This document shows positions 10,727 through 27,170 of a stretch of 64,000 nt of DNA, piece after piece (the stretch's first letter is position 1; the number at the start of each line of letters is the position of its first letter). Made by a program: the position numbers and the translations under genes. The notes beneath the pieces are model-generated. The model saw nothing but the letters and a program-made list of their open reading frames with translations, was not told where the DNA came from and ran no database searches. Source of the DNA: Aminobacter ciceronei (GTDB lineage Bacteria; Pseudomonadota; Alphaproteobacteria; Rhizobiales; Rhizobiaceae); NCBI RefSeq assembly GCF_014138625.1, contig NZ_JACJHY010000002.1:248001-312000 (forward strand), written 5' to 3'.

Positions 10727-11512
10727 TCACAGGCCGATCATCACGCGCAGCGGGTTGGTGGGGTCGATGAGCAGGCGGATGGCCAGTGCGACGCAGGTGC
10801 AGACCAGCAGCGGCTTGATCAGCTTTGCGCCGTTGCGCATTGCCATGTGGGCGCCAAGCCGGGCGCCGAGGAACTGGGCAATGCCCATCAGCACCCCGAT
10901 CTTCCAGGCAACCACGCCGACAAGCGCGAAGGCAATGAAGCTGCCGACATTGGAGGCGAAGTTGAGCAGCTTGGTATGGGCGGTGGCCTTGAGCACGCCG
11001 TAGCCGGCCAGGGTGACGAAGGCGAGCATGAAGAACGAGCCGGCGCCGGGGCCGAACACGCCGTCATAAAAGCCGATCAGCGGCACCACTGTCAGTCCGA
11101 ACAGCAGGGGCGGCAGGCGTTCGACGCGATCGACGTCATCCATGTTGGGCTTGAACGCGAAGTACAGCGCAATCGTGATCAGCAGGAACGGCAGAAAGAT
11201 GCGCAGGATGTCGCCGGGCAGGACCGTCGCCAGCATGGCTCCGAGCATCGCGCCGACGAATGAAATGGCTGCGAACGGCAATTGCTTGCGCAGGTCGACA
11301 TGGCCTTTGGCGGCGTAGCTGATGGTGGCGGAGCCCGAGCCGAACAGCGATTGCAGCTTGTTGGTGCCGAGCGCCTCGAGCGGCGGTAGGCCGGCGAGCA
11401 GCAGTGCCGGAATGGCGATCAGGCCGCCGCCGCCTGCTATGGAATCGATGAAGCCGGCGATGAAGGCAGCCACGATCAGGATCAGCAAGGTTTCTGTGGC
11501 TATGTCGAACAT
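10727..11512 (-). CDS. Sulfite exporter TauE/SafE family permease
   Basis: A 261-residue membrane protein with about eight hydrophobic segments. The first TauE repeat begins with AAFIAGFIDSIAGGGGLIAIPALL and LEALGTNKLQSLFGSGSAT. The second repeat has GFYDGVFGPGAGSFFMLAF and AHTKLLNFASNVGSF. The inverted half-repeats with IAGGGG and FGPGAG are the family hallmark. Family members export sulfite, sulfoacetate or other small organic acids; the solute here is unknown. The start at 11512 gives the usual length; a longer in-frame region upstream to 12019 overlaps the opposite-strand TerB gene and is not coding. Confidence 0.87.
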   Translation of the reverse strand: MFDIATETLLILIVAAFIAGFIDSIAGGGGLIAIPALLLAGLPPLEALGTNKLQSLFGSGSATISYAAKGHVDLRKQLPFAAISFVGAMLGAMLATVLPGDILRIFLPFLLITIALYFAFKPNMDDVDRVERLPPLLFGLTVVPLIGFYDGVFGPGAGSFFMLAFVTLAGYGVLKATAHTKLLNFASNVGSFIAFALVGVVAWKIGVLMGIAQFLGARLGAHMAMRNGAKLIKPLLVCTCVALAIRLLIDPTNPLRVMIGL

Positions 11513-11674
11513 CGGTGCGGAGATCTGTCCAGGAGTATGAGGCCTTCGACCACAGCGCACCCGCTTGCGCAATAGCGCGTCGGCGGCAATGCTGGCCCAG
11601 CCATTGGGCCAAGTGTTTTTCGCCGTGCATTGCTCTATATCGGAATTGCAGTTGCCTCGACGGAAGGGATTCGC

Positions 11675-12106
11675 ATGGTAACAGGATTGCTGACCCAAAT
11701 TCTGAACATGTTCGAGGGCGACCCCGGCGTCCGCAAGGTCGCCGACGACCCCGTGCTTTCGGCCGAGCTGCTGCTGCTGTTCCGGATGATCCTCGCCGAC
11801 GGTGTCGCCAGTGAAGCCGAGATGATCGCCTTTCGTCGGATCTGCACCGAAGCCTTCGGCATCGCCGAGAGCAGCATCGATGGCGTCATCGAATATCTCA
11901 ACGAGTTCGGCTACGAGACCAACGGTTCGCAGGCCATCGCCATGTTCCGTGATCTCGACGTCGAACGACGCCGGCAACTGGCCCGCCACATGGCCGAGAT
12001 CGCCAAGGCCGACGCCCATCTGGCGGAAAACGAGGTCAAGCTCCTGCGCCGCACGCTCGATTTGCTGGGCATCAGCCCCGTCGATGTGGTGAAGCCGGCG
12101 ACTTAG
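11675..12106 (+). CDS. TerB-family (tellurite-resistance/COG4103-like) protein
   Basis: A 143-residue all-helical cytosolic protein. The core has acidic patches typical of TerB domains: LLLFRMILADGVASEAEMIAF, and near the end EIAKADAHLAENEVKLLRRT, where the Asp and Glu residues form the metal-binding sites in the family. GGAAGGG precedes the ATG at 11675. Standalone TerB proteins of this type are common in Rhizobiales and have no assigned function; there are no other ter genes here. It is divergent from the TauE gene. Confidence 0.8.
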   Translation: MVTGLLTQILNMFEGDPGVRKVADDPVLSAELLLLFRMILADGVASEAEMIAFRRICTEAFGIAESSIDGVIEYLNEFGYETNGSQAIAMFRDLDVERRRQLARHMAEIAKADAHLAENEVKLLRRTLDLLGISPVDVVKPAT

Positions 12107-12215: not shown

Positions 12216-13841
12216 TCACCCCTGTTCCTGCAGCCTCCGGGCGATTGCCCGGTGCAGGTCGGGTGCTGCCGAGACAAGTGCCTGCGCGGCCTCCGTCTGC
12301 GGATGGTCCAGCACTTCAGATGTCTTGCCGCGCTCGACGATCCGCCCTTCATGCATGATCAGAACGTCGTCTGTTATGGCGCGGGCGACGGTCAGGTCGT
12401 GTGTGATGAAGAGATAGGCCACGCCCAGCTTCTGGTTGATCTCGGCGAACAGGTCGAGGATTTGCGCGCGGATCGAGACATCCAGCGCCGACACAGGCTC
12501 GTCCGCCACCACCAGCTTGGGCCGGGTGATGATGGCGCGGGCGATCGACAGGCGCTGGCGCTGGCCGCCTGAAAACTCGTGCGGGTATTTCTCCATGTCG
12601 GAACGGCTGAGGCCGACTTCATGCAGGGCGCGACCGACCATGTCGCGACGTTCCTTGCGGTCTGGCTTGCGCTCGAGAAGATGCAGCGGTTCGCCAACAA
12701 GCCGCTCGACGGTGTGACGCGGGTCGAACGAGCCGTAAGGGTCCTGGAACACCACCTGCATGTTGCGGCGGGCGCGGCGCATGGCGGTCTCGTCGGCGCG
12801 GGTAATGTCCATGCCGCGAAACTTGATGGTTCCATCGGTGGGGGTGTCGAGCGCAAGGATCATCCGCGCAAGGGTCGACTTGCCGCAACCGGAGCGGCCG
12901 ACAAGCGCTACCGAAGCACCCGGCTTCATCTTGAGCGAGACGTTGTCGACGGCACGGACGGGTTCCGGCTTCGAAAACAGCGACCGTCGCCGGCCGGGAT
13001 AGTCCCTGGTCAGATTGGCGACGTCGAGCAGGGTGTCGGGTGCGGTTTCGTCGATATGAGGCCTGACGCGGGCCGGCACGTGCATCGAGGCCAGAGCCAG
13101 CTGGCGGGTGTAGGGATGGGTTGCCTCCGACAGCGTTCGTGCGGTGTCGCCACACTCCGTCACCATGCCCTGGCGCAGGATGGTGATCCGGTCGGCCATT
13201 TCGGTGACGACGGCGAGGTCGTGCGAGATGAACAGCAGGCTCATCCGGTTTTCGCGGACCAGTTCCTTGAGCAGGTCGAGGATCTGCGCCTGCAGCACGA
13301 CGTCGAGTGCGGTCGTCGGCTCGTCGGCGATCAGCAGTTTGGGCTTCAACGCGCAGGCGATGGCGATGGCGACGCGCTGCCGCTGGCCGCCGGACAATTC
13401 GTGCGGATAGCGCGACAGCGGGAATTTCTGCTCCGGCAGGCCGACCCGGTCGAGGATTTTCCGCGCTTGCGCCTCGGCCTCGGCCCGGCTCGCCCTTGTG
13501 TGCCACCTGATGCCTTCGGCGACCTGCTCGCCGATCGTCTTGACCGGATTGAGCGCTGTCATCGGCTCCTGGAACACCATGCCGATGTCGTCGCCGCGCA
13601 GCGCGCACATCTGGGCCTCGGTGGCAGAGAGAATGTCGATGCCGTCAAAGGTGACACGCCCCTTCATCTGCGATGCCGCAGGCGTGAGGCGCATGACGGC
13701 AAGTGCCGTCATGGATTTTCCCGACCCGGATTCTCCGACGAGCCCCATCACCTCGCCGGGTTCGATGGCGAGGTCGATCTCCTTCAGCACCTGCGTCCGG
13801 CCGATCCTGAGCGACAGCTTTTCGATCTCGAGCAGGCTCAT
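12216..13841 (-). CDS. ABC importer ATPase, fused DppD-DppF type
   Basis: A 541-residue protein with two complete ATP-binding domains. Domain 1: Walker A GLVGESGSGKSM at about residues 33-44, signature ELSGGQRQRVAIA, Walker B KLLIADEPTTALD. Domain 2: Walker A ALVGRSGCGKSTLA, signature EFSGGQRQRLSIA, Walker B KLVVADEPVSALD. This is the single-chain arrangement seen in GsiA/YejF-type peptide and opine importers. The ATG at 13841 overlaps the stop of the upstream permease gene (ATGA), indicating translational coupling. It energises uptake by the two permeases and the binding protein encoded upstream. Confidence 0.92.
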   Translation of the reverse strand: MSLLEIEKLSLRIGRTQVLKEIDLAIEPGEVMGLVGESGSGKSMTALAVMRLTPAASQMKGRVTFDGIDILSATEAQMCALRGDDIGMVFQEPMTALNPVKTIGEQVAEGIRWHTRASRAEAEAQARKILDRVGLPEQKFPLSRYPHELSGGQRQRVAIAIACALKPKLLIADEPTTALDVVLQAQILDLLKELVRENRMSLLFISHDLAVVTEMADRITILRQGMVTECGDTARTLSEATHPYTRQLALASMHVPARVRPHIDETAPDTLLDVANLTRDYPGRRRSLFSKPEPVRAVDNVSLKMKPGASVALVGRSGCGKSTLARMILALDTPTDGTIKFRGMDITRADETAMRRARRNMQVVFQDPYGSFDPRHTVERLVGEPLHLLERKPDRKERRDMVGRALHEVGLSRSDMEKYPHEFSGGQRQRLSIARAIITRPKLVVADEPVSALDVSIRAQILDLFAEINQKLGVAYLFITHDLTVARAITDDVLIMHEGRIVERGKTSEVLDHPQTEAAQALVSAAPDLHRAIARRLQEQG

Positions 13842-14704
13842 GGGCGACGCCTCGACCGCGGATCGAAGATATCTGAGATGCCGTCGCCGAGCAGGTTGAG
13901 CCCAAGCACGGTGATCAGGATCGCGCAGCCGGGGAACAACGCCAGCCATGGCGACACCATCATCAGCGTCTGCGCGTCGAACAGCATGCGTCCCCAGCTC
14001 GGCATCGGCGGCTGCGTGCCGAGCCCGACATAAGACAGGGCGGCCTCGGCCAGGATACCAAGCGCGAACTGGATGGTGCCTTGCACCAGGAGCAGGTTGG
14101 CGATGTTGGGCAGGATATGCTCGACGGTGATGCGGCTCTTGTTCTTGCCGGCGGCACGGGCGGCAAGGATGTATTCGCGCGGCCAGATCGACAACGCGCC
14201 GGCACGCGCGACGCGGGCGAAGACCGGGATGTTGAAGATGCCGATGGCGATGATGGCGTTGATCGCGCTCGGTCCGAAGACAGCGGTGATCATGATCGCC
14301 GACAGCAATGCGGGAAAGGCGAAGACGAGATCGTTGAAGCGCATCAGCGCCTCGTCGACCCAGCCACCACGCGCTGCCGCCCAGCAGCCGAGCGGCACGC
14401 CGATGCCCATGCCGATGACGACCGCGACAAGCGCCACGGCGATCGAGTTGCGCGCCCCGATCATGATCATCGACAGCACGTCGCGGCCGAAATGGTCGGT
14501 GCCGAACCAGTGCTCTGCGGAGGGCGGCTGCATGCGGTCGGCGACGACGAGCCTGGTGACGTCGAAGGGGGTCCAGAAGAACGAGATGGCCGCCATGGCA
14601 GCGACGACCAGGGCGATGACGAGGCCGATGACGAAAGAGCGGTTGCCGAACGCACGGCCGACGAATTCGCCGAAACCTTCGCTGTGAGGTGTCGCTTCGT
14701 TCAT
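13838..14704 (-). CDS. ABC importer permease, DppC type
   Basis: A 288-residue membrane protein. An N-terminal cytoplasmic segment and first helix are followed by the OppC-type motif HWFGTDHFGRDVLSMIMIGAR, five more hydrophobic segments, and the EAA loop EYILAARAAGKNKSRITVEHILP. The ATG at 14704 overlaps the TGA of the DppB-type gene in the sequence TCAT, and its own stop overlaps the ATPase start. It forms the channel with the DppB-type partner in the inner membrane. Confidence 0.92.
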   Translation of the reverse strand: MNEATPHSEGFGEFVGRAFGNRSFVIGLVIALVVAAMAAISFFWTPFDVTRLVVADRMQPPSAEHWFGTDHFGRDVLSMIMIGARNSIAVALVAVVIGMGIGVPLGCWAAARGGWVDEALMRFNDLVFAFPALLSAIMITAVFGPSAINAIIAIGIFNIPVFARVARAGALSIWPREYILAARAAGKNKSRITVEHILPNIANLLLVQGTIQFALGILAEAALSYVGLGTQPPMPSWGRMLFDAQTLMMVSPWLALFPGCAILITVLGLNLLGDGISDIFDPRSRRRP

Positions 14705-15648
14705 TGCCGTGCCCTCAGGCGCGGGTCGACCAGCGCATAGGACAGATCGACGATCAGGTTGACCAGCACCACGGCGGCGACCAGCAGCATCACCACGCTT
14801 TCGACGACGATCAGGTCGCGCTGGATGATCGCCTGGAAGACAAGGCGTCCCAGGCCCGGCAGATAGAAGACATTTTCGATGATGATGGTGCCGGCGAGCA
14901 GGAAGGCGAATTGCAGGCCCATGATGGTCAGCACCGGGATCATGGCGTTGCGCAGCGCGTGCCGCCACAGCACTGCGCGCATCGGCATGCCCTTGGCGCG
15001 TGCCGTGCGGATGTAGTCCTCGTTGAGCACCTCGATCAAGGCGGCGCGGGTGACGCGGGCCAGGATCGCCGCCTGCGGCAAGGCGAGGGCGAGCGCCGGC
15101 AGGATCAGCGCCTTGAGCGCCGGCCAGATGCCGTTGCCCCAGCCGGGAAAGCCGCCGGCGGGCACCAGCCGCAACCAGACGGCGAAAACATAGACAAGCA
15201 GCAGCGCGAACCAGAAATTGGGCATGGCGACGCCGACCTGTGCCACGGCCATGGCAGCGGTGTCGCCAGCCTTGCCACGGCGCGCGGCGGCGAACAGGCC
15301 GACGGGGATGGCAATGAGTGTCGAAAGCGTCAGGGAGATCACCGCAAGCGGGAAGGAGACGACAAGCCGCTCCCTGATCAGGTCGATCACCGGCACCGAA
15401 TAGGTGTAGGATTTGCCGAAATCCAGCCGGAGCAGGCCGCGGATCCAGTCGAGATAGCGCAGGATCAGCGGCTGGTTCAGCCCCATCTGCTCACGCAGCA
15501 GGTCGACCTGCGCGTCACTGGTGTTCATGCCCAGCATCAGCCGGGCCGGATCTCCGGGGACGACCTCGAGCATCAGGAACACGACGAGCGAGGCGACGAT
15601 GAGGGTCGCAATTCCGATCAACAGGCGTTTGAGCAGATAGATCGTCAT
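14701..15648 (-). CDS. ABC importer permease, DppB type
   Basis: A 315-residue membrane protein. It starts MTIYLLKRLLIGIATLIVAS with the characteristic N-terminal helix, then the periplasmic DppB motif VPGDPARLMLG and MGLNQPLILRYLDWIRGLLR. The EAA loop is EVLNEDYIRTARAKGMPMRAVLWRHALRN. ATG at 15648 is preferred over an in-frame TTG three codons upstream. There are 196 bases between the binding-protein gene and this one, containing a stable hairpin just after the binding-protein stop. Confidence 0.92.
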   Translation of the reverse strand: MTIYLLKRLLIGIATLIVASLVVFLMLEVVPGDPARLMLGMNTSDAQVDLLREQMGLNQPLILRYLDWIRGLLRLDFGKSYTYSVPVIDLIRERLVVSFPLAVISLTLSTLIAIPVGLFAAARRGKAGDTAAMAVAQVGVAMPNFWFALLLVYVFAVWLRLVPAGGFPGWGNGIWPALKALILPALALALPQAAILARVTRAALIEVLNEDYIRTARAKGMPMRAVLWRHALRNAMIPVLTIMGLQFAFLLAGTIIIENVFYLPGLGRLVFQAIIQRDLIVVESVVMLLVAAVVLVNLIVDLSYALVDPRLRARQ

Positions 15649-15812
15649 CAAGCGCAAACTGCCCGAGAAAATGCCGCTTCGAAAGCTCGCAAAGGTTGCA
15701 GAGAAGCGCAGTTCACAGAACTCTTGCGATGCTCCCAGAAATAACGGCGACGAAGTTCGTCGCGAGTGCCTTCATATCGGCAGGCAACATGCCGTGCTTC
15801 CGCCAAGCGGGT

Positions 15813-15838
15813 GGTGGCGCACCCGAAGGCGCGCCACC
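15813..15838 (-). other. Hairpin after the binding-protein gene, 8-bp stem
   Basis: GGTGGCGC (15813-15820) and GCGCCACC (15831-15838) pair exactly with a 10-base loop, six bases beyond the binding-protein stop. No T-run follows on the minus strand. Such elements often stabilise the binding-protein message and reduce read-through, which gives more binding protein than permease. Confidence 0.55.
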
Positions 15839-15844
15839 TTGTCA

Positions 15845-17326
15845 TCAGTCGGCCCACTTCACCTTGGTGAGGTCGTTGGCCTGGATGGGCGAGTTTTCCC
15901 ACAGGCCTTCGACCTTGGCGTCCCAGATGCCGACCTTGGGCAGTTCGAACAGGAAGCCGTTGACGGCATCGTCGGCGAGAATCTTCTGCGCCTGCTTGTA
16001 GAGCTCGGTGCGCTTGGCCTCGTCGGAGGTCAGGTTGAGCTCGTCGATGACCTTGTTGAAGGCCGGGTTGTCGTAATTGAAGTAGTAGTCCTTGCGGGCA
16101 TAGATATCGATGTCGTTGGGCTCGGTGTGCGAGACGATCGACAGGTCGTAATCCTTGTCGGTGAACACCTGCTTGAGCCAGTCGGCCCATTCGACCGGGA
16201 TGATCTGCAGGTCGATGCCGATCTCGCGCAATTGCGAGGCGATGATTTCGCCGCCCTGGCGGGCGTAACCGACCGGCGGCAGCTTGAGCGTCGCCTTGAA
16301 GCCATCGGCGAGGCCCGCTTCCTTGAGCAGTTCCTTGGCCTTGGCGATGTCGTGCGGATAGGTGCCGGTCAGGTCGATATAGGCCGGGTTGTGCGGGGCG
16401 AAATGCGAGCCGATCGGCGTGCCCAGGCCACCGGTCGCGCCGTCGATCAGCGCCTTGCGGTCGATGGCATGTGCGATCGCCTGGCGCACCTTGAGATTGT
16501 CGAAGGGCGGCTTCTTGTTGTTGGTCGACAGCACCGTTTCACCCTCGGTGGTGCCGATGACCACCTTGAAGCGCGGGTCGGCCTTGACCTGGGCGAGCGC
16601 ATCGCCGAGCGCAAAGTTGGGCAGCGCCTGCACGTCGCCCGAAAGCAGGGCAGGGATGGCGGCGGCGGCGTCGGGGATGATGCGGAACTCCGCCTTGTCG
16701 AGCGCCACCGGATCGCCCCAGTAGCCATCGGCCTTGACCAGCGTGATCGACGAGCCCTTGGCCCAGTTCTGGAACTTTAAAGGGCCGGTGCCGACAGGCT
16801 TTTCCTTGTTGGTCTCGGCGCTCTCCGGCGCAACGATCACCGCGTCGCCCCAGCCGAGATTGTAGAGGAACGAGCCGAGCGGGTTCTTGAGCGTCACCTT
16901 GACGGTGGCCGGATCGACGACCTCGATGGTGTCGATCGGCGCAAACAGGCCTTTCTGCGCGTTGACCGAGCTTTCGCCACGGGCGCGGTCGAGCGAGAAC
17001 TTGACGTCGGAGGCGTCGAAGTCGCTGCCGTCATGGAATTTCACGCCGGAGCGCAGCTTGAAGGTGTAGGTCTTGCCGTCGTCGGAAATCGTCCAGCTCT
17101 CGGCCAGATCGGGCAGCACCTCGCCGCGCGAACCGATGCGGGTCAGGCCTTCGAAGACGTTGGCGTAGAAGACTTCGTCGATGGCGGCGGCTGCGCCTGC
17201 CGTCGGGTCGAGATGTGGCGGCTCCAAGGGCATGCCGAGCACGAGGTCGGTGCGGGCGGCCATCGCGGCGGTGCCGGAGGCCAGCGCCAGCGCTGCGGCC
17301 GCCAGTATGGTTTTCCATTGCTTCAT
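15845..17326 (-). CDS. ABC transporter substrate-binding protein, family 5 (peptide/opine/nickel)
   Basis: A 493-residue periplasmic protein. The signal peptide MKQWKTILAAAALALASGTAAMA is followed by the mature start ARTDLVLGMPLEPPHLDPT. Family signatures include EGLTRIGSRGEVLPDLAESW and TYTFKLRSGVKFHDGSDFDASDVKFSLDRA. The start at 17326 has the signal peptide immediately downstream; the 37 upstream codons are Cys/Lys-rich and unlikely. It delivers the solute to the DppBC-type channel. The ligand is not known; the linked M20 hydrolase hints at a peptide-like or N-acylated compound. Confidence 0.9.
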   Translation of the reverse strand: MKQWKTILAAAALALASGTAAMAARTDLVLGMPLEPPHLDPTAGAAAAIDEVFYANVFEGLTRIGSRGEVLPDLAESWTISDDGKTYTFKLRSGVKFHDGSDFDASDVKFSLDRARGESSVNAQKGLFAPIDTIEVVDPATVKVTLKNPLGSFLYNLGWGDAVIVAPESAETNKEKPVGTGPLKFQNWAKGSSITLVKADGYWGDPVALDKAEFRIIPDAAAAIPALLSGDVQALPNFALGDALAQVKADPRFKVVIGTTEGETVLSTNNKKPPFDNLKVRQAIAHAIDRKALIDGATGGLGTPIGSHFAPHNPAYIDLTGTYPHDIAKAKELLKEAGLADGFKATLKLPPVGYARQGGEIIASQLREIGIDLQIIPVEWADWLKQVFTDKDYDLSIVSHTEPNDIDIYARKDYYFNYDNPAFNKVIDELNLTSDEAKRTELYKQAQKILADDAVNGFLFELPKVGIWDAKVEGLWENSPIQANDLTKVKWAD

Positions 17327-17462
17327 GCTCAGATCTCCCCGCTTCGACTTCGACGGGCCGGATAGAAGCGTGATTTCCCGGCCGAGTAAATCGCGTTTGT
17401 TGCAATTGCAGCAGTGCTGCGGAAATGATTTTCTCACGGCCCAACAGCCGTTGCTTGCCCGC

Positions 17463-18806
17463 TCAGCCGCTGAACTGGCCGCGCAGCAAGATGTCGAGGC
17501 CTATTGCCATCACCTTCGCCGACTGGACCATGTCGTCGATGCCGACCCATTCGTCCGGCCGATGGGCGAGGTCGAGAATACCCGGGCCATAGGCGATGCA
17601 ATCGTACAAATGGCCGATGCGGGCGACGTGCTTCTGGTCATAGGTACCGGGCGAGATGACATATTCTGGCTCCTTGTCGAAGATCTCGCGTATGCCCCTG
17701 GCAATGGCCGACGCCACCGGCGCATCGCGCTCGGTCATCAGCGGCTGGACCTCCATGATGTCGCGGATCTCGTAGTCGAACTTCTTCCGCTCGCTCTTCA
17801 GGCGGTCAAGGATGCTGGTGACTTCGCCTTTGACGTCGACGATGTTTTCTTCCAGCAGGAAGCGACGGTCGATGGTCAGGCGACAGGAATCGGGCACGTT
17901 GGGCGAGGGCAGGCCGGGGCGAAAATCGTCGGTCTGGCCGCCATGGATCGAGTTGATGTTCATCGTCGAGCGCCTGGCGCCTTCCGGCACCACCGGCATT
18001 CGCGTCGTCTTGCGGTCGAGCGCGGGAAACAACTCCCGCTCGAAGGCTTCGAGCACGGCCCCCATGTGGCGGACGGCGCAGTCGCCGAGGAACGGCATGG
18101 AGCCATGTGCGATCTCGCCCTTGGTCTCGATTTCCGCCCACCAGACGCCGCGATGACCGAGGCAGATACGGTCCTTGTTGAGCGGCTCGGGAATGATGAC
18201 GTGGTCGACCCTGGGCCTGGAGAAATACCCCTTGCCGGCGAGATAGGCGACGCCGCCGAAACCGCCCGACTCCTCGTCAACGGTGCCTGATATCTCGATG
18301 GCGCCGGGAAAATCCGGGTTGGCGTCCATGAAAGCTTCGGCGGCGATGATCGAGGCCGCCAGCCCGCCCTTCATGTCGCAGGCGCCGCGGCCATAGACGC
18401 GGCCGTCGCGGATCGTGCCGGCAAATGGATCAACCGACCAGCCTTCGCCCGCCTCGACGACGTCGATATGGGAATTGAAATGGACGGTGGGTCCGGCCAC
18501 CCGGCCGTCGAAACGGGCAACGACATTGATGCGCGGATAGCGATCGGTGTCGCCTGGCGTGCCTTCGGCTCTGATGTATTCGACGCCGAAGCCGCGCTTG
18601 GCCAGGCGATTGCCGAGATATTCCGCGCAAGGGCGATAGGCGTCGCCGGGCGGGTTGATGGTGGGAAAACGGATCAGCTCCGCAGTCAGTTCCGCCAGTT
18701 CTTCACGACGGTCGTCTATGATCTTGAAAAGCTTGTCATACATGCGGTCGACATTGTTCACTTTGTCTGGCTTCACCTTGCCCGGATTGTTGCCAGTCTT
18801 GCGCAT
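17463..18806 (-). CDS. M20-family metallo-deacylase/peptidase (ArgE/DapE-like)
   Basis: A 447-residue cytosolic zinc hydrolase. Metal ligands are visible in HFNSHIDVV, GRGACDMKGGLAA and the base in SGTVDEESGGFG; EP in HVIIPEPLNKD and the late His in LDLAHRPDEWVGIDD complete the set. The lid domain lies between. Such enzymes remove acyl groups from amino acids or cut small peptides. It lies 136 bases upstream of the binding-protein gene on the same strand, so it likely processes the imported compound. The start is uncertain: ATG at 18806 has a poor SD, and ATG at 18743 (MYDKLFK) is a plausible alternative. Confidence 0.87.
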   Translation of the reverse strand: MRKTGNNPGKVKPDKVNNVDRMYDKLFKIIDDRREELAELTAELIRFPTINPPGDAYRPCAEYLGNRLAKRGFGVEYIRAEGTPGDTDRYPRINVVARFDGRVAGPTVHFNSHIDVVEAGEGWSVDPFAGTIRDGRVYGRGACDMKGGLAASIIAAEAFMDANPDFPGAIEISGTVDEESGGFGGVAYLAGKGYFSRPRVDHVIIPEPLNKDRICLGHRGVWWAEIETKGEIAHGSMPFLGDCAVRHMGAVLEAFERELFPALDRKTTRMPVVPEGARRSTMNINSIHGGQTDDFRPGLPSPNVPDSCRLTIDRRFLLEENIVDVKGEVTSILDRLKSERKKFDYEIRDIMEVQPLMTERDAPVASAIARGIREIFDKEPEYVISPGTYDQKHVARIGHLYDCIAYGPGILDLAHRPDEWVGIDDMVQSAKVMAIGLDILLRGQFSG

Positions 18807-18869: not shown

Positions 18870-19370
18870 TCACGGCCGGACGGCGGTGACCTCGATCTCG
18901 ATCAGCCAGCCGGGCGCGACGAGGCCGGCGACCTGCATCACCGAGCGGGCCGGCAGGTTCGGTTGTTCCTTGGTGCCGAAAAACTTGGTGTAGCTGTCCA
19001 TGAAGCCGGCAAAATCCATCTTGCCGCCCTGTGCCGGATCACCGACGAGGAAGACCTGCATCTTGACCACGTCGCCCATCTTGAGGCCGAGCCCTTCGAG
19101 GGTCTTTTCGATCGATTTCAGCACCGATTCCGTCTGCGTTCTGGTGTCGCCATAGGCGGCAAGGCTGCCCTTCTCGGCCTTCTCGTCGATGACCGAGGGC
19201 ACGGCGCCGCTGACATAGACCGTCGTCTTGCCGGCGGGGACTTCGACGGCCTGGGCGATCGGAAAGTCCGAATTGGGGTTCTTGTGGCGCACCACATCCT
19301 CAGCCAGCGCGCTGCCCGAGAGCAACAGGCCGGCCACGAGCGTGGCGGCGCAGATCCGCAGTGTTGTCAT
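18870..19370 (-). CDS. Exported RidA-family imine/enamine deaminase
   Basis: A 166-residue protein made of a signal peptide and one RidA (YjgF) domain. The start at 19370 has a strong SD (AAGGAGA). MTTLRICAATLVAGLLLSGS and the following ALA form a normal Sec signal. The C-terminal family signature is present in LPARSVMQVAGLVAPGWLIE: the conserved Arg that binds the substrate carboxylate and the closing Glu are both kept, so it should be catalytically competent. RidA proteins hydrolyse reactive imines or enamines. Most are cytosolic; export is unusual. It lies 125 bases downstream of the cytochrome gene, in line with an amine oxidase, suggesting it clears the imine formed in the periplasm. Confidence 0.85.
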   Translation of the reverse strand: MTTLRICAATLVAGLLLSGSALAEDVVRHKNPNSDFPIAQAVEVPAGKTTVYVSGAVPSVIDEKAEKGSLAAYGDTRTQTESVLKSIEKTLEGLGLKMGDVVKMQVFLVGDPAQGGKMDFAGFMDSYTKFFGTKEQPNLPARSVMQVAGLVAPGWLIEIEVTAVRP

Positions 19371-19495
19371 GTCTTTCTCCTTTTGCCGCATGAAATGAAG
19401 CAGCCAGCAGGATCACCGGCTGCTTCGGTCGCTGGAGCTGGCGCTCCAAACCTGGTGGATCCAGGCCGTCTGGTGGCCAATCCGGCGTCGATCCG

Positions 19496-19909
19496 TCAGC
19501 GTGCCCCGGCGACGTCTTCCGCCGTCACCGGATCCTTGTAGTCGTTGCCGAAATTGGTCCTGACATAGTTGACCACGGCGGCCACCTGGTCGTCGCTCAT
19601 CATGCTGCCGACGGGCGGCATGCCCTTCTGGCCATGCAGGATGACGTAGACGGGGTAACCGCCTGATTCCAGGTTCTCGTTCTTGGCGAGCGCCGGATAT
19701 TTGCCGGCGCCGACGGCGCCCTGGCCCTGGTCCATGTGGCAGGCCTGGCAGACATTGGCGTAGAGTTCCTGGCCGGTTTTTTCGGAGAAATTGTCACCAT
19801 CGCTGAAGGTTGCACCGGCCGAGTCGGCCAGGGCAGCACTCGCCTGGAATGTAGCGAAGATGACGGCGGCGGTGATTTGGCCGGTTAAAAGTTTCGATTG
19901 CTGGGTCAT
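19496..19909 (-). CDS. Small exported class I cytochrome c
   Basis: A 137-residue protein. The signal peptide MTQQSKLLTGQITAAVIFAT then FQASAALA precedes a single haem motif CQACH in ELYANVCQACHMDQGQGAVG. The axial Met is probably in GMPPVGSMMSDDQVAAVVNY, the usual C-terminal position. The start at 19909 is chosen because it gives a proper signal peptide; an ATG at 19963 that overlaps the stop of the upstream gene would hide the signal. It lies 50 bases downstream of the flavin amine oxidase and probably receives its electrons. Confidence 0.87.
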   Translation of the reverse strand: MTQQSKLLTGQITAAVIFATFQASAALADSAGATFSDGDNFSEKTGQELYANVCQACHMDQGQGAVGAGKYPALAKNENLESGGYPVYVILHGQKGMPPVGSMMSDDQVAAVVNYVRTNFGNDYKDPVTAEDVAGAR

Positions 19910-19959
19910 GTCGACATGCCTTGCGAAAAATGAGGATGAAGGATGAGCGGCGGCGGCCG

Positions 19960-21561
19960 TCATCCGGCCACGACGCGCTGGTGCAGCCGAGTGATCGCAT
20001 CGAGCGACGACAGGATCGCCCCCTCCATCCACGCCGGGATGTAGGAGGCGTGTTCGCCGGCGAGCACGATGCGGCCATCGATCTGGCAAAGATTGTCGTA
20101 GTGCTCCTTGCGCGCTTCCTCGGTCCAGTCGCCGGCACAGCCGAGCGTAAACGGTGAGCGGTGCCAGGCCATCGAGATGCCGTTCTCGAACTCGTCCTTG
20201 TATTGCGGGTGGATCATCGTTCCGTATTCGACGGCGCGCTTGACGCGCTCCTCCGGCGCCATCGAGGTGAACTCATAGGAATGCGGCCCGTTCCAGGTGT
20301 AGGCGCCGAGCAACACGCCCTTGCCGTTGGTGTTGAAGCTGGTGCTCGGATAGGAGATCTGGGTGATCGGCAGGTCGGTGTAGCTGACGCCGCCGAAGAT
20401 CAGCTCGTCCTGTTCCCAGAAACGCCGCTTGAACTGCAGGCCGACCTTGACCGACGAGGCATAAGGCACGGCTTCGATCGCCGCCTGCATCGGGGCGCCG
20501 ACATTGATCTCGATCTGGCTGAGAATGGTCAGCGGAATGGTACAGATGCACCAATCGGCCTTCTCCTCGGCCATCGTGCCCGGTTTCTGGACGTCCTCAT
20601 AGGTGACGGTGACGCCCTTGTCGTCCTGATGGATCTTCGACACCTTGGCATTGTAGGTGATCAGGTCGCCGACCTCCTTGGTGAAGGCCTTGCCGATCAT
20701 GTCGATGCCGCCAACCGGCTGGAACATCGTCGTCTGGAACTCGTAAAGGGCGAAATTGGCGAGGCTGCCCCACAGGCCCGAGCTCAATATGTCGGTCAGC
20801 GCAATCGGATCGCTCGGCACGGGGGCAGCCCCGAGGCCGCCGCCGGGATCCTTGGCGAAACCGCGGAATTCGGAGTTTGCTATGCTCTTGGTGTAGGCAT
20901 AGTCCTTGTCGAGCGCACCCCAGGAGCGCAGGGCCTCGACCAGCATCTCCTGGTCTTCCTTGGTGACGCCGCCTTCGAGCTTGCCGGTGTGGGCAACCTT
21001 GGCGAGCAGTTCGGAGACATGGCCCTGGAAGTCGATCTTGATGTCGCGCACGCGCTGCGGCTTGCCGCCGAACGCCTTGGACGAATGCAGGAAGGCGTTG
21101 TGGTTGAGCTGCTGGAACGGCTCCAGCGTGACGCCGAGGCGCCGGCAATAGGCGAGCAGACCGTTGTGGTGATAAGGGATTCGCCACGGGCCGGGATTGA
21201 TGTAGAGGCCTTCGTCGAAATCGCATTTCTGCGTCGCGCCGCCGAGCTCGGTGTAGGTGTCGCCGCCGCGCAACGTCCAGTTACGCCCGCCCGATCTGTT
21301 GTTGTATTCGAGAATCTTGACCTTGTAGCCGGCCTGCCGGAGCTCGAGTGCGGCCGTCATGCCGGCGAGGCCGGCACCCAGGATAAGCACGCTGGCGCCC
21401 TTCGGATCGCCCTCCAGTTTCACCGGTCCCTTGTAGCCTGACTCAACCGCGAGACCGAGGCTGGTCATCGCCTGGTACATCGCGGCAGTGCCTGCCGTGA
21501 GGCCGATCAACGACAGCAGGTTTCGCCTGCTCATGCCGCTAAAATATTGGGATGGTTGCAT
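19960..21561 (-). CDS. Tat-exported flavin amine oxidase/dehydrogenase
   Basis: A 533-residue FAD enzyme of the monoamine oxidase/L-amino acid oxidase superfamily. The N-terminus has the twin-Arg motif SRRNLLSLIG followed by a hydrophobic stretch, so the folded flavoprotein is probably exported. The dinucleotide motif VLILGAGLAGMTAALELRQAG is near residues 58-78 and is followed by LEYNNRSGGRNWTLRGG. The C-terminal FAD segment is IVLAGEHASYIPAWMEGAIL. ATG at 21561 follows GGAGGA. The substrate is not known; the active-site region GAYTWNGPHSYEF does not identify it. The downstream cytochrome c and exported RidA suggest a dehydrogenase that passes electrons to cytochrome rather than O2. Confidence 0.87.
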   Translation of the reverse strand: MQPSQYFSGMSRRNLLSLIGLTAGTAAMYQAMTSLGLAVESGYKGPVKLEGDPKGASVLILGAGLAGMTAALELRQAGYKVKILEYNNRSGGRNWTLRGGDTYTELGGATQKCDFDEGLYINPGPWRIPYHHNGLLAYCRRLGVTLEPFQQLNHNAFLHSSKAFGGKPQRVRDIKIDFQGHVSELLAKVAHTGKLEGGVTKEDQEMLVEALRSWGALDKDYAYTKSIANSEFRGFAKDPGGGLGAAPVPSDPIALTDILSSGLWGSLANFALYEFQTTMFQPVGGIDMIGKAFTKEVGDLITYNAKVSKIHQDDKGVTVTYEDVQKPGTMAEEKADWCICTIPLTILSQIEINVGAPMQAAIEAVPYASSVKVGLQFKRRFWEQDELIFGGVSYTDLPITQISYPSTSFNTNGKGVLLGAYTWNGPHSYEFTSMAPEERVKRAVEYGTMIHPQYKDEFENGISMAWHRSPFTLGCAGDWTEEARKEHYDNLCQIDGRIVLAGEHASYIPAWMEGAILSSLDAITRLHQRVVAG

Positions 21562-22635: not shown

Positions 22636-25485
22636 ATGAAGTCAGAACCGCATGTAGCGCTTTCGGAACCCGTCTCCGACGAGGTCCGCAAGACCACCTG
22701 CTACATGTGCGCTTGCCGCTGTGGCATCGACGTCCATCTCAAGGACGGCAAGGTCCGCTACATAGAGGGCAACCGGGACCATCCGGTCAATCGCGGCGTT
22801 CTGTGCGCCAAGGGTTCGGCCGGCATCATGCAGCACTACGCGCCGGCGCGGCTGCGCGCGCCGCTGCTCAGGACCGGGCCGCGCGGCTCGGGTGAGTTCA
22901 AGGAGATTTCCTGGGACGATGCGCTGGAGCTGGCGACCGGCTGGCTGGACGGCGTGCGCCATGCCGATCCGAAGAAGCTGGCCTTCTTCACCGGCCGCGA
23001 CCAGTCGCAGTCGCTGACCGGCTTCTGGGCCCAGCAGTTCGGCACGCCCAACTACGCCGCCCATGGTGGCTTCTGCTCGGTCAACATGGCGGCCGCCGGC
23101 ATCATGACCATCGGCGGCGCCTTCTGGGAATTCGGCGCGCCCGACTGGGACCGCACCAAGCTGTTCGTGATGTTCGGCGTGGCGGAGGACCACGATTCCA
23201 ACCCGCTCAAGATCGGCATTTCGAAGCTCAAGAAGCGCGGCGCGCGCTTCGTCTCGGTCAATCCGGTGCGGACCGGCTATTCGGCAGTCGCCGACAACTG
23301 GATCGGCATCCGGCCCGGCACCGACGGCCTGCTGATCCTCGCCGTCATACATGAACTGCTGAAAGCGCGGAAAATCGATGTCGACTACATCGTGCGCTAT
23401 TCCAACGCGACCTGGCTGGTCGTCGATGCGCCCGGAACCGCCGAGCACGGACTTTTCGTCCGCGATGCCGAGGGCAAGCCGCAGATCTTCGAATCCGTCA
23501 CCGAACAGGTCGTGGCATTGGGCAGCAAAGGCGCGCGGGCCGCACTTTCCGGGCGTGTCGAGCTGCCCGACGGCCGCTTTGCGGTGCCGTCGTTCCAACT
23601 CCTCGCCGAAAAATACCTCGACCCGCAATATGCGCCGGAGGCGGTCGCCGCGGAAACCGGCGTCGCCGCCGACGTCATCCGGGGCCTCGCTGCCGAGATC
23701 GCGCGCGTCGCCTTCGACGAGGCGATTACGATCGACCAACCCTGGACCGACATGAATGGCGAGCGCCATGAGGCGTTTGTCGGGCGTCCGGTGTCGTTCC
23801 ATGCCATGCGCGGGCTTTCGGCGCATTCGAACGGCTTCCAGACGGCGCGCGCCCTGCACATGCTGCAGGTGCTGATCGGCGCTGTCGACTGCCCCGGGGC
23901 CTTCCGCTTCGAGCCGCCTTATCCCAAGCCGATCGAGGCGCATCCGACGCCGCACGGCAAGGCCGAGCATTTCGGCTCCAACAAGCCTTTGTCCGGCCCG
24001 CATCTCGGTTTTCCCCGTGGGCCGGAAGATCTGCTGATCGACGCCGACGGCAAACCGATGCGCATCGACAAGGCGTTTTCCTGGGATGCGCCGATTTCTG
24101 CCCATGGGCTGATGCACATGGTGATCGCCAACGCCCATGCCGGCGATCCGTACCCGATCGATCTGATGTTCCTCTACATGGCCAACATGGCGTGGAACTC
24201 GTCGATGAACACCGCGGGCGTCATCAGGATGCTCGAGGACAAGGATCCCGCGACGGGCGCCTACCGCATCCCGAAGATCATCTATTCGGACGCCTATTCC
24301 TCCGAAATGGTCGCTTATGCCGACCTGGTGCTGCCCGACACGACCTATCTCGAGCGGCACGACTGCATTTCGCTGCTCGACCGGCCAATCTCCGAGCCGG
24401 ATGCGGTCCAGGACGCCATCCGTTGGCCGGTGGTAGAGCCGGATCGGGATGTGCGCGGCTTCCAGAGCGTGCTGATCGACCTTGGCGCGCGGCTCAAGCT
24501 GCCCGGTTTCGTCGACAGCCGCGGCAAGGCGCTCTATGCGGACTATGCCGACTATATCGTGCGCCATGAAAGGCGGCCGGGCATCGGGCCGCTTGCCGGC
24601 TTCCGCGGCAGCAATGGCGACCGTGCCGGGCGCGGGGCGATCAACCGTAACCAGCTCGATCGCTACATCGAGAACGGCTCGTTCTTCTCAGCGCATATCC
24701 CGCTCGAAGCGCAGTTCTTCAAGCACGCCAACAAGGCCTATCAGGATTTTGCCGTGCGCATGGGCTTCTTCGACGAGCCGAAGCCGGTGACCTTCCAGCT
24801 CTACCAGGAATCACTGCAGAAATTCCGGCTCTCGGCCGAAGGCCTGCGTGAACCGGTGGCGCCCGAGACGCATCGTGAGCGCATCCTCGCAACCTTCGAT
24901 CCGCTGCCGATGTGGTATCGGCCGTTCGAGGAGGCGGCGGTCAGCCGAGAGGACTATCCCTATCATGCCATCACCCAGCGACCGGCGGCGATGTACCATT
25001 CCTGGGGCTCGATGAATGCCTGGCTCAGGCAGATCCATACACGGAACCCGCTCTATGTGCCTGGTCCGATCTGCGACGAGATCGGGCTCGTCGATGGCGA
25101 CTGGGTCTGGGTGATTTCGCATCACGGCCGCATCAAGGTCGAGGTCGCGCGGATGGAAGCGGTCAATTCGAGCACGATCTGGACATGGAATGCGATCGGC
25201 AAGCGCGCGGGCGCCTGGGCGCTCGACAAGGATGCACCAGAAGCCAAAAAAGGCTTCCTGATGAATCACTTGATCCATGAACTTCTACCGCCGAAGGGCG
25301 ACGGGATGCGCTGGTCGAACTCGGATCCGGTGACCGGCCAGGCGGCGTGGTACGATCTGCGCGTGCGCATCGAGAAAGCCGAACCGGCAGAGGTCAGCGA
25401 GCCGCATCTTGCCGCCGTCGCGCAACCCGGCGGAGCACGTCCGCATGCTGACGAGCTGCGCTACGGCCAGGAGTGGGCGGAATGA
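22636..25485 (+). CDS. soeA: Sulfite dehydrogenase (SoeABC-type) molybdopterin subunit
   Basis: A 949-residue DMSO-reductase-superfamily protein without a Tat signal, so cytoplasmic. The N-terminal [4Fe-4S] motif C-x2-C-x3-C-x27-C uses C22, C25, C29 and C57. C147 in HGGFCSVNMAAAG is a likely Mo ligand by position (inference). The molybdopterin guanine dinucleotide segments and the C-terminal domain with PGPICDEIGLVDGDWVWV are present. Size, lack of signal and the following ferredoxin and DmsC-like genes fit SoeABC, which oxidises cytoplasmic sulfite and feeds quinone, as described in Allochromatium vinosum and found in roseobacters. Other cytoplasmic DmsABC-like oxidoreductases are the alternative. 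Confidence 0.8.
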   Translation: MKSEPHVALSEPVSDEVRKTTCYMCACRCGIDVHLKDGKVRYIEGNRDHPVNRGVLCAKGSAGIMQHYAPARLRAPLLRTGPRGSGEFKEISWDDALELATGWLDGVRHADPKKLAFFTGRDQSQSLTGFWAQQFGTPNYAAHGGFCSVNMAAAGIMTIGGAFWEFGAPDWDRTKLFVMFGVAEDHDSNPLKIGISKLKKRGARFVSVNPVRTGYSAVADNWIGIRPGTDGLLILAVIHELLKARKIDVDYIVRYSNATWLVVDAPGTAEHGLFVRDAEGKPQIFESVTEQVVALGSKGARAALSGRVELPDGRFAVPSFQLLAEKYLDPQYAPEAVAAETGVAADVIRGLAAEIARVAFDEAITIDQPWTDMNGERHEAFVGRPVSFHAMRGLSAHSNGFQTARALHMLQVLIGAVDCPGAFRFEPPYPKPIEAHPTPHGKAEHFGSNKPLSGPHLGFPRGPEDLLIDADGKPMRIDKAFSWDAPISAHGLMHMVIANAHAGDPYPIDLMFLYMANMAWNSSMNTAGVIRMLEDKDPATGAYRIPKIIYSDAYSSEMVAYADLVLPDTTYLERHDCISLLDRPISEPDAVQDAIRWPVVEPDRDVRGFQSVLIDLGARLKLPGFVDSRGKALYADYADYIVRHERRPGIGPLAGFRGSNGDRAGRGAINRNQLDRYIENGSFFSAHIPLEAQFFKHANKAYQDFAVRMGFFDEPKPVTFQLYQESLQKFRLSAEGLREPVAPETHRERILATFDPLPMWYRPFEEAAVSREDYPYHAITQRPAAMYHSWGSMNAWLRQIHTRNPLYVPGPICDEIGLVDGDWVWVISHHGRIKVEVARMEAVNSSTIWTWNAIGKRAGAWALDKDAPEAKKGFLMNHLIHELLPPKGDGMRWSNSDPVTGQAAWYDLRVRIEKAEPAEVSEPHLAAVAQPGGARPHADELRYGQEWAE

Positions 25486-26249
25486 CCAGCCTGCCGTCAC
25501 TGCCGACACCGAAGAAGCTTGGCCTGGTCATCGACCTCGACGTCTGCGTCGGCTGCCATGCCTGCGTCATCAGCTGCAAGGAGTGGAATACCGGCGGCTA
25601 TGGCGCGGCGCTGTCCGACCAGGACCCGTATGGGGCCGATGTCTCCGGCACCTTCCTCAATCGCATCCACACCTTCGAGGTCGTGCCGGAGGGCGGGCAG
25701 GTGATCGGCGAGGCGGGAGAGGCACGCATCGTGCATTTCCCCAAGTCATGTCTGCATTGCGAGGACGCGCCCTGCGTCACCGTCTGTCCGACAGGCGCCT
25801 CCTACAAGCGCGCCGAAGACGGCATCGTGCTAGTCGACGAGAGCAAGTGCATCGGCTGTGGCCTGTGCGCCTGGTCCTGCGCCTATGGCGCGCGCGAGAT
25901 GGATCTGGCCGCCGGGGTGATGAAGAAATGCACGCTCTGCGTCGACCGCATCTACAACGAGACGCTCAAGGAGGTCGACCGGGTGCCGTCCTGTGTCCGG
26001 ACATGCCCGGCCAATGCCCGGCATTTCGGCGATCTCGGCGATGCCTCATCAGAGGTCTCGCGCATGGTGGCCGAGCGCGGCGGCTACGACCTGATGCCGG
26101 AGCAGGGCACGCGCCCGACCAACAAGTACCTGCCGCCACGGCCGCGCAAGCCGCTGGCCGCAAGTGCCGGTTCTGCCGTGCTGGCTGAGAACACCCACGA
26201 CGCCAAAGGGTTCTTTGCCTGGCTCGACGGCATGCTGGACCGGATCTGA
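25482..26249 (+). CDS. soeB: Four-cluster ferredoxin subunit of the sulfite dehydrogenase
   Basis: A 255-residue DmsB/PhsB-like protein. Cys clusters occur in DVCVGCHACVISCKEW, SCLHCEDAPCVTVCPTGASY, KCIGCGLCAWSCAYGAREMD, KKCTLCVDRI and SCVRTCPANARHFG, enough for four [4Fe-4S] centres. The ATG at 25482 overlaps the soeA TGA (ATGA), so the two are translationally coupled. It passes electrons from the molybdenum subunit to the membrane anchor. There is no signal peptide, consistent with a cytoplasmic-facing complex. Confidence 0.85.
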   Translation: MTSLPSLPTPKKLGLVIDLDVCVGCHACVISCKEWNTGGYGAALSDQDPYGADVSGTFLNRIHTFEVVPEGGQVIGEAGEARIVHFPKSCLHCEDAPCVTVCPTGASYKRAEDGIVLVDESKCIGCGLCAWSCAYGAREMDLAAGVMKKCTLCVDRIYNETLKEVDRVPSCVRTCPANARHFGDLGDASSEVSRMVAERGGYDLMPEQGTRPTNKYLPPRPRKPLAASAGSAVLAENTHDAKGFFAWLDGMLDRI

Positions 26250-26252
26250 ACC

Positions 26253-27170
26253 ATGCATCCCGCCTTCTCCATCATCGTGTTCACCACGCTTTCCGGGCTC
26301 GGCTACGGCCTGGCGGCTGTGCTCGGCCTTGGCCTGCTCGACGCCTCGACCCTGTCGGTCAAGCTTGCACACATCGGCGCGCTGGCAATGATCGCAGCCG
26401 GCCTGTTGGCGTCGACGCTGCATCTCGGCAACCCGCAACGGGCATGGCGGGCGCTGTCGCAATGGCGCTCGAGCTGGCTGTCGCGCGAAGGCGTGATGGC
26501 AATCGCCAGCTTCGTGCCGCTGACTGTTACGGCATGGTTTGCGATCGTCGAGGGGCGTCACCTCGCGGTTGCGGGCCTGGCAGGCACGCTCATGTGTGGC
26601 GCCACGGTCTACTGCACGGCGATGATCTACGGTTCGCTGCGCTCGATCCAGGCCTGGAATACAGGGCTAACGCCGCTTTGCTACCTGCTGTTCGCCGCAG
26701 CCGGGGGCTTCCTGCTCGCGTCCGTCGCCGGTTATTCATCCGGCAGCCGCGGCCCGGTTTGCGCCGCAATCGCCATCCTGTTTGTCGTGGCGGCGTGGAT
26801 CTGCAAGCAAAAGTGGTGGACAAGGCTGCGGACACTCGCGCCGTTCTCGACGCCCGAGAGCGCCACCGGGCTTGGCCATATCGGCCATGTCAGGCTGTTC
26901 GAGCGGCCGCATGTCAATGAGAACTACCTGACCCGTGAAATGGGCTTCAAGGTCGCGCGCAAGCACGCGCTCAAGCTGTCCAGGCTGGCGATCCTGTCTG
27001 GCGGGCTGGCGCCTGTTCTGCTGCTGCTGGTGGCGATCCTTGCCGGCGGGTCGGCCGCCGTGCCGGCTGCCGTGCTGGCCGTGTTCTGCTATGCGCTCGG
27101 CCTTGTCGTCGAGCGCTGGCTGTTTTTCGCGGAAGCCCGCCATGCGGTCATGACCTATTACGAGGGATAG
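26253..27170 (+). CDS. soeC: DmsC-family membrane anchor of the sulfite dehydrogenase
   Basis: A 305-residue membrane protein with about eight hydrophobic segments, beginning MHPAFSIIVFTTLSGLGYGL, the typical DmsC/NrfD-2 start. HLGNPQRAWRALSQWRSSWL is the conserved loop of DmsC anchors with the quinone-site His. It begins three bases after soeB. It docks the catalytic subunits on the inner membrane and passes electrons to quinone. Its stop is four bases from the oppositely oriented lpxXL stop, so there is no room for a separate terminator. Confidence 0.83.
   Translation: MHPAFSIIVFTTLSGLGYGLAAVLGLGLLDASTLSVKLAHIGALAMIAAGLLASTLHLGNPQRAWRALSQWRSSWLSREGVMAIASFVPLTVTAWFAIVEGRHLAVAGLAGTLMCGATVYCTAMIYGSLRSIQAWNTGLTPLCYLLFAAAGGFLLASVAGYSSGSRGPVCAAIAILFVVAAWICKQKWWTRLRTLAPFSTPESATGLGHIGHVRLFERPHVNENYLTREMGFKVARKHALKLSRLAILSGGLAPVLLLLVAILAGGSAAVPAAVLAVFCYALGLVVERWLFFAEARHAVMTYYEG

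Follow-up and report, generated by a model that had tools for sequence, protein, structure and literature searches.

A lao-cccA-ridA-type gene trio of Aminobacter ciceronei and its predicted role as a periplasmic L-amino-acid dehydrogenase module

What would a flavoenzyme, a small cytochrome c and a Rid protein do together outside the cytoplasm? This question is raised by three co-directional genes on the minus strand of Aminobacter ciceronei, at positions 18870-21561 of the window, by which is meant the whole analysed stretch of 64,000 nucleotides (nt; contig NZ_JACJHY010000002.1, 248,001 to 312,000). In gene order they encode a 533-amino acid, FAD-binding flavoenzyme of the L-amino-acid oxidase (LAAO) type, a homologue of Lao (19960..21561; Pfam Amino_oxidase, 3.9e-56), a single-haem cytochrome c of 137 amino acids, exported by motif and homologous to CccA (19496..19909; PF13442, 1.4e-13; PF00034, 1.5e-10), and a Rid3-like predicted imine deaminase of 166 amino acids, homologous to RidA (18870..19370; PF01042, 4e-20). 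The intergenic gaps measure 50 nt between flavoenzyme and cytochrome and 125 nt between cytochrome and Rid. An earlier note on this DNA had described the three genes in line, with a twin-arginine translocation (Tat) motif, a CQACH motif and a Rid protein of the exported type, and sequence and Pfam matches confirm this description. The same note knew of no report of the trio as one system; such a cluster, lao-cccA-ridA, was, however, published in 2016 for Gluconacetobacter diazotrophicus (PMC5053998), and the trio of the window is the Aminobacter example of this known kind, not a new system. Its products would probably act as a periplasmic L-amino-acid dehydrogenase, a cytochrome serving as electron acceptor and a Rid protein clearing the imine.

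In G. diazotrophicus, tryptophan was no longer metabolised and indole-3-acetic acid (IAA) no longer formed when Tn5 was inserted in lao, as seen with two such insertions. The Lao protein of this organism was noted to bear a Tat signal and to be 34% identical to the LAAO of Rhodococcus opacus, and cytochrome c and RidA were proposed as helpers of the probably periplasmic enzyme (PMC5053998). The cluster is restated in PMC10805672, where the periplasmic LAO1-LAO2/RidA pair of Chlamydomonas is described in addition, and RidA or Rid3 genes beside genes of FAD amine oxidases had been noted earlier (PMC4433059). A search with the published lao forward primer in 347 genomes of the family of genome G529 gave two hits. 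At one of them, L153, all six published primers match exactly and in order, while the second has one mismatch in one primer; from these primer matches we infer that L153 is the G. diazotrophicus cluster. Its proteins are 59% (flavoenzyme), 48% (cytochrome) and 54% (Rid) identical to those of the window, and its Rid protein, too, begins with a signal-like stretch. The likeness to the cluster of strain PAL5, GDI2456-2454, comprises the three genes, their order and direction, the Tat-like motif, the exported cytochrome and the signal-like Rid protein (PMC5053998). This comparison covers the trio only, the window differing in the M20 and ABC-transporter genes that lie downstream.

The N-terminus of the flavoenzyme, MQPSQYFSGMSRRNLLSLIG, carries the twin-arginine motif SRRNLL of a Tat signal (residues 11-16; 21514..21531, minus strand). 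Arg12 and Arg13 of this motif are invariant in a 29-sequence alignment, and a simple Tat pattern matches 78 of 87 flavoenzyme homologues. Among the nine unmatched sequences, near-Tat motifs are found in L129 (SKRDLL), L114 (TKRQFL) and L115 (SRRSFV); L042 is a fragment, and the proper N-termini of L142, L107, L108, L112 and L113 lie outside the stretch compared. The best match in the PDB is the R. opacus LAAO (2jae, 3.3e-86), to which the flavoenzyme is identical at 174 of 470 aligned positions (37%). An AlphaFold2 model built on the 29-sequence alignment (mean predicted local distance difference test score, 81.7) has 2jb1/2jae as its top Foldseek matches, with a TM-score by target length of 0.87 and 36% identity, followed by other amino acid oxidases. 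In an alignment of 87 flavoenzymes, which includes the window and near-copies and leaves out one fragment, Arg127, Lys372 and Trp511 are present throughout (87/87), and Tyr421 is replaced by F in 4 sequences (Y in the other 83). Arg127 aligns with the arginine of the R. opacus enzyme that we take to hold the substrate carboxylate. Because this LAAO is the best match in both sequence and fold, the flavoenzyme is of the L-amino-acid-oxidase type, and amino acids are likelier substrates than simple amines. The assignment to an amino-acid substrate class is well supported; the earlier proposal of a NicA2-like amine enzyme is at odds with these nearest relatives.

The Rid gene starts at an ATG at 19370 that follows GGAG, with a second in-frame ATG at 19391. 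The N-terminus of its product is signal-like from residue 1 to about residue 23, ending in SALA. Export of all proteins was judged by motifs and by a simple home-made hydrophobicity rule, which is crude. By these means, the common compartment assumed in the earlier note is borne out at the level of signals, the flavoenzyme having a Tat motif and both the cytochrome and the Rid protein a signal of the Sec or lipoprotein type. The Arg and Glu residues that had been called intact are indeed conserved: in an alignment of 57 Rid sequences of the loci, the window included, the catalytic-type Arg142 (18945..18947, minus strand), the equivalent of RidA Arg105, is R in 57/57, Glu158 is likewise invariant (E in 57/57), and at Glu160 two sequences have D and the other 55 have E. 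The name RidA requires correction. The closest solved sequences are PFL_1385 (9bkc, 6.7e-38) and PSPTO_3006 (9bka, 4.6e-37), and 23 further PDB chains among the matches listed score 1e-7 or weaker; both proteins are classed as Rid3 (PMC5619798), and in the alignment the PFL_1385 chain, too, begins with a hydrophobic stretch that resembles a signal. Against the RidA-type model TIGR00004 the window protein reaches 51.7 bits, under the cut-off of 106.25. By these comparisons it is Rid3-like and not a RidA in the strict sense. In vitro, PFL_1385 and PSPTO_3006 lowered the imine signal produced by an LAAO with Leu, Gln, Phe, Met and His, and both were also active on iminoarginine made by DauA (PMC5619798). 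By comparison with these Rid3 proteins, imine removal, as suggested before, is a sensible role for the Rid protein of the trio, and its hydrolysis step may be proposed by analogy. In the genome of A. ciceronei itself there are 17 Rid matches; the signal rule is positive in 5 of the 15 with loci, of which three look false, the start lying within the domain, and two look real, the trio Rid (L056) and L060. The latter, a second signal-like Rid protein (G000:C3:209836-210174; L060, L154), has the N-terminus MSRKIKHLLVGGLITMTMSLPTATTANES.

The cytochrome belongs to Pfam Cytochrome_CBB3 (1.4e-13) and has a signal-like N-terminus and one haem-binding motif, CQACH (residues 54-58; 19736..19750, minus strand). 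Met97, its likely axial ligand, is M in 64/64 aligned sequences.

The conservation of the linkage was followed in two collections of genes. Even samples of 385 genomes of the class and 398 genomes of the phylum, which overlap, yielded 45 flavoenzyme genes besides that of the own genome, the fragment L079 being left out; 20 genes from 19 genomes are close homologues (>500 bits), and 25 are remote (<=500 bits). A pattern-found set comprises 40 loci; 37 of these carry the 39 flavoenzyme genes that score >500 bits, and three further genes score lower. This set contains near-identical copies, and one contig, L037 = L124, occurs in both sets. A cytochrome gene was counted as adjacent if it was of c-type, on the same strand and within 700 nt, and a Rid gene as nearby if it lay within 6 kb; the contig of L039 ends too early past the flavoenzyme gene to show a Rid gene. 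Every close homologue has an adjacent c-type cytochrome gene (20/20 in the even sample, 39/39 in the pattern-found set), which lies downstream of the flavoenzyme gene in 19/20 and 38/39. PF13442 matches number 8 in the 6.77 Mb of the own genome, 7 of them over the cut-off and the trio cytochrome included; since a c-type cytochrome nevertheless adjoins 20/20 close homologues of the even sample, the linkage of flavoenzyme and cytochrome is beyond chance. A Rid gene lies within 6 kb of 14/20 and 26/39 close homologues, respectively, and directly beside the flavoenzyme gene (<800 nt, same strand) in 11/20 and 24/39. All of these nearby Rid proteins carry a signal or lipobox by the home-made rule (14/14 and 26/26), so that an exported Rid protein, called unusual in the earlier note, is the usual case at such loci. 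The linkage, which the note had proposed to check, is kept across many families of the Pseudomonadota. Its occurrence in the Rhizobiales is patchy: the order sample gave a match at 1e-60 in 1 of 199 genomes, the own genome, and two further genomes of the order have a match in the phylum sample. Among the named relatives compared, Aminobacter carboxidus is the nearest, its flavoenzyme being 99% identical.

Among the remote homologues, 8/25 have an adjacent cytochrome, single-haem in five cases and two-haem in three. A Rid gene within 6 kb is present at 16/25, 13 of these with a signal, and is found at 8/8 loci with a cytochrome and 8/17 without. Three remote Siphonobacter genes of the pattern-found set have neither a cytochrome nor a Rid gene nearby. 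If a cytochrome on either side of the flavoenzyme gene is counted, the cytochrome label needs 2 changes on a tree of 70 rows, compared with 16.2 after shuffling of the labels, and 2 changes are imposed by well-supported branches; the Rid label needs 12 changes, compared with 20.7 after shuffling. In the main branches the pairing with a cytochrome is stable; overall it has changed at least twice, and Rid has been gained or lost repeatedly. A higher count of at least 4 changes in the cytochrome pairing was dropped, as two came from genes with the cytochrome on the other side; the notion of Rid as the more constant partner was likewise given up in view of its label changes.

Cytochrome genes of other forms were seen at some loci. 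In the remote loci L140, L142 and L144, a two-haem cytochrome c gene lies between the flavoenzyme and Rid genes. A large cytochrome gene is situated just upstream of the flavoenzyme gene in L036, L038, L132 and L135, and in L132 and L135 three CxxCH motifs are read in it. In the locus L029 of Solimonas marina, the flavoenzyme gene is present three times in one run, together with two cytochrome genes and three genes for Rid proteins with a signal, one of these with a lipobox.

Among flavin amine oxidases related to NicA2, a Tat signal and an adjacent cytochrome gene are good predictors of cytochrome-using dehydrogenases among the tested enzymes of clades 2 and 3 (PMC12224317). The window locus has both, as far as motifs tell: a Tat signal and an adjacent cytochrome gene with a Sec-type signal. 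With NicA2/CycN and the other Tat-borne dehydrogenases of that work, the trio shares the Amino_oxidase family, the Tat signal and the adjacent exported cytochrome c; the window enzyme differs in being of LAAO type, and neither 'LAAO' nor 'L-amino' occurs in the main text of PMC12224317. By the rule given there, the flavoenzyme would be a cytochrome c dehydrogenase, and from this rule together with its LAAO kinship, the conversion of an L-amino acid into a 2-imino acid, with two electrons passed to the cytochrome, is the most likely reaction. That a cytochrome rather than O2 would be the acceptor is moderately supported, by analogy with proven NicA2-type dehydrogenases. The flavoenzyme would be folded with its FAD in the cytoplasm and then be exported by the Tat system. 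In the periplasm, it would take hydride from L-amino acids to give 2-imino acids, and its FADH2 would be reoxidised by the small cytochrome c in two one-electron steps. The cytochrome would hand the electrons to a terminal oxidase, and the exported Rid3-type protein would convert the imino acid on the spot into the 2-oxo acid and ammonium.

Several observations weigh against this assignment. The nearest relative of solved structure, the R. opacus LAAO, with which the window enzyme shares the fold and 37% identity, is an oxidase. It was reported to have a Tat signal as well, and in G. diazotrophicus no single role is proven, because the transcripts of all three cluster genes were lowered in the mutant Gdiaa01 (PMC5053998). 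Clade 1 pairs of NicA2-related enzymes react slowly with their cytochrome; for the clade 1 enzyme of Pseudomonas aeruginosa, values of 290 per M per s with the cytochrome versus 160 per M per s with O2 were given (PMC12224317). In the even sample, 6/20 close homologues are without a Rid gene within 6 kb, and 3/20 cytochromes of close homologues are without a signal by the home-made rule (L130, L132, L135). Rid is the looser partner, given its 12 changes on the tree versus 2 for the cytochrome. At 17/25 remote homologues no CxxCH frame was found within 900 nt, from which it follows that the wider family does without a cytochrome. Among the matches listed in the open-access journal literature, no kinetics or assay for this LAAO branch was found, nor any biochemistry of it beyond PMC5053998.

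If these points were to prevail, the enzyme could be a periplasmic L-amino-acid oxidase, which would pass electrons to O2 to form H2O2 and the imino acid; the cytochrome would merely be co-regulated or otherwise engaged, and Rid would again remove the imine. The oxidase nature of the nearest solved relative and the remote homologues without a nearby cytochrome motif speak in favour. A precedent in part is Chlamydomonas, where LAO1 and LAO2/RidA likewise pair an extracellular LAAO with a Rid protein; LAO1 differs in that it makes H2O2, and in the parts of PMC10805672 consulted a cytochrome partner is not mentioned. Such an oxidase is nevertheless rather unlikely in the window, considering the cytochrome genes that adjoin all close homologues of the even sample, the two-haem cytochromes that occupy this position in a remote branch and the marking of dehydrogenases elsewhere by Tat signal and cytochrome (PMC12224317). 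A dehydrogenase of the NicA2 type for amines instead of amino acids would have the same Amino_oxidase domain family and the same layout of Tat signal and cytochrome in its favour (PMC12224317). It is very unlikely: the best matches are L-amino-acid oxidases, the LAAO-type Arg127 is invariant, and tryptophan conversion in G. diazotrophicus depends on the homologous enzyme (PMC5053998). Moreover, none of the best 60 of 103 PDB matches bears the name of a nicotine enzyme, a comparison of names only, with no NicA2 alignment, in which several entries are labelled just 'amine oxidase'.

A narrow-substrate version of the favoured reading, with the same mechanism, would see the trio as an auxin module, the main role of which is the conversion of tryptophan into indole-3-pyruvate for IAA. 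It draws on the lao mutants of G. diazotrophicus, in which IAA formation ceases and tryptophan is not consumed (PMC5053998), and on the requirement of LAO1 for IAA in Chlamydomonas (PMC10805672); the downstream neighbours in Aminobacter are, however, an M20 deacylase and a peptide-type transporter, and so restricted a role is unlikely. For the L-amino-acid dehydrogenase as the preferred reading, a wider claim may be made, for which the scales are about evenly balanced. According to it, the LAAO-type branch across many families of the Pseudomonadota would consist of L-amino acid:cytochrome c dehydrogenases of a periplasmic relay, mostly with an exported Rid3-type protein, the single-haem cytochrome being fixed in the main branches and replaced by a two-haem one in a remote branch, and Rid being variable. 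If the module works as proposed, bacteria could respire extracellular amino acids in the periplasm with no H2O2 made and the cytoplasm spared reactive imines, the cytochrome-using 'oxidases' would be extended to the L-amino-acid oxidase branch, and exported Rid proteins would gain a clear job. The proposal of 2016 on auxin formation in a plant endophyte, with cytochrome c and Rid assisting an amino-acid oxidase, would also become testable.

Downstream of the trio, on the same strand, follow a gene for an M20 deacylase/peptidase (17463..18806; NF009558, 6.6e-228) and, by Pfam, those of a peptide/opine-type ATP-binding cassette (ABC) transporter with a double ATPase, two permeases and a binding protein (12216..17437). 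A clear homologue of the M20 gene lies near the flavoenzyme gene in 14/84 loci, all of close relatives (13 distinct, L037 and L124 being one contig), and the ABC-transporter binding protein is found in the same 14/84 loci. Looser single-linkage clustering enlarges the M20 group to 18 loci, the four extra ones being unconfirmed by the stricter comparison. M20 and transporter genes are lineage-specific neighbours outside the core trio; reading the substrate from them was abandoned, since, confined to close relatives, they tell little about the core function.

Divergent from the trio and upstream of it are a YkuD-domain gene (Pfam) and three plus-strand genes of a molybdo-oxidoreductase set (22636-27170), namely Mo subunit, Fe-S subunit and DmsC-like anchor; the set presumably resembles a cytoplasmic sulfite dehydrogenase. 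The Mo-subunit family was found by clustering near the flavoenzyme gene in 14 loci, two of them on one contig. A TauE-like gene is located at 10727-12019. For the molybdoenzyme and TauE-like genes no NCBIfam model reaches its cut-off, and a link to sulfonated amino acids through these genes was dropped for this reason and because the molybdo set is local to the same close relatives.

Other neighbours occur at distant loci. Beside the Siphonobacter flavoenzyme gene of L043 lies a gene for an aminotransferase with a signal-like start (L043:4607-5893; Aminotran_1_2, 2.6e-35), and its cluster also has genes from L039, L044 and L045. A cluster of TonB-dependent-receptor-like genes is represented near the flavoenzyme gene in 18 loci, with a single Pfam-confirmed copy at L039:3069-5711. 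A scan for promoters and terminators gave no promoter-like or terminator-like site on the minus strand and four terminator-like sites on the plus strand (shuffles, 2.6 +/- 1.6). The gap between cytochrome and Rid genes (19372-19496, minus strand) has a strong predicted RNA fold (-55.7 kcal/mol, z -3.58), with a 12-pair stem immediately 5' of the Rid gene.

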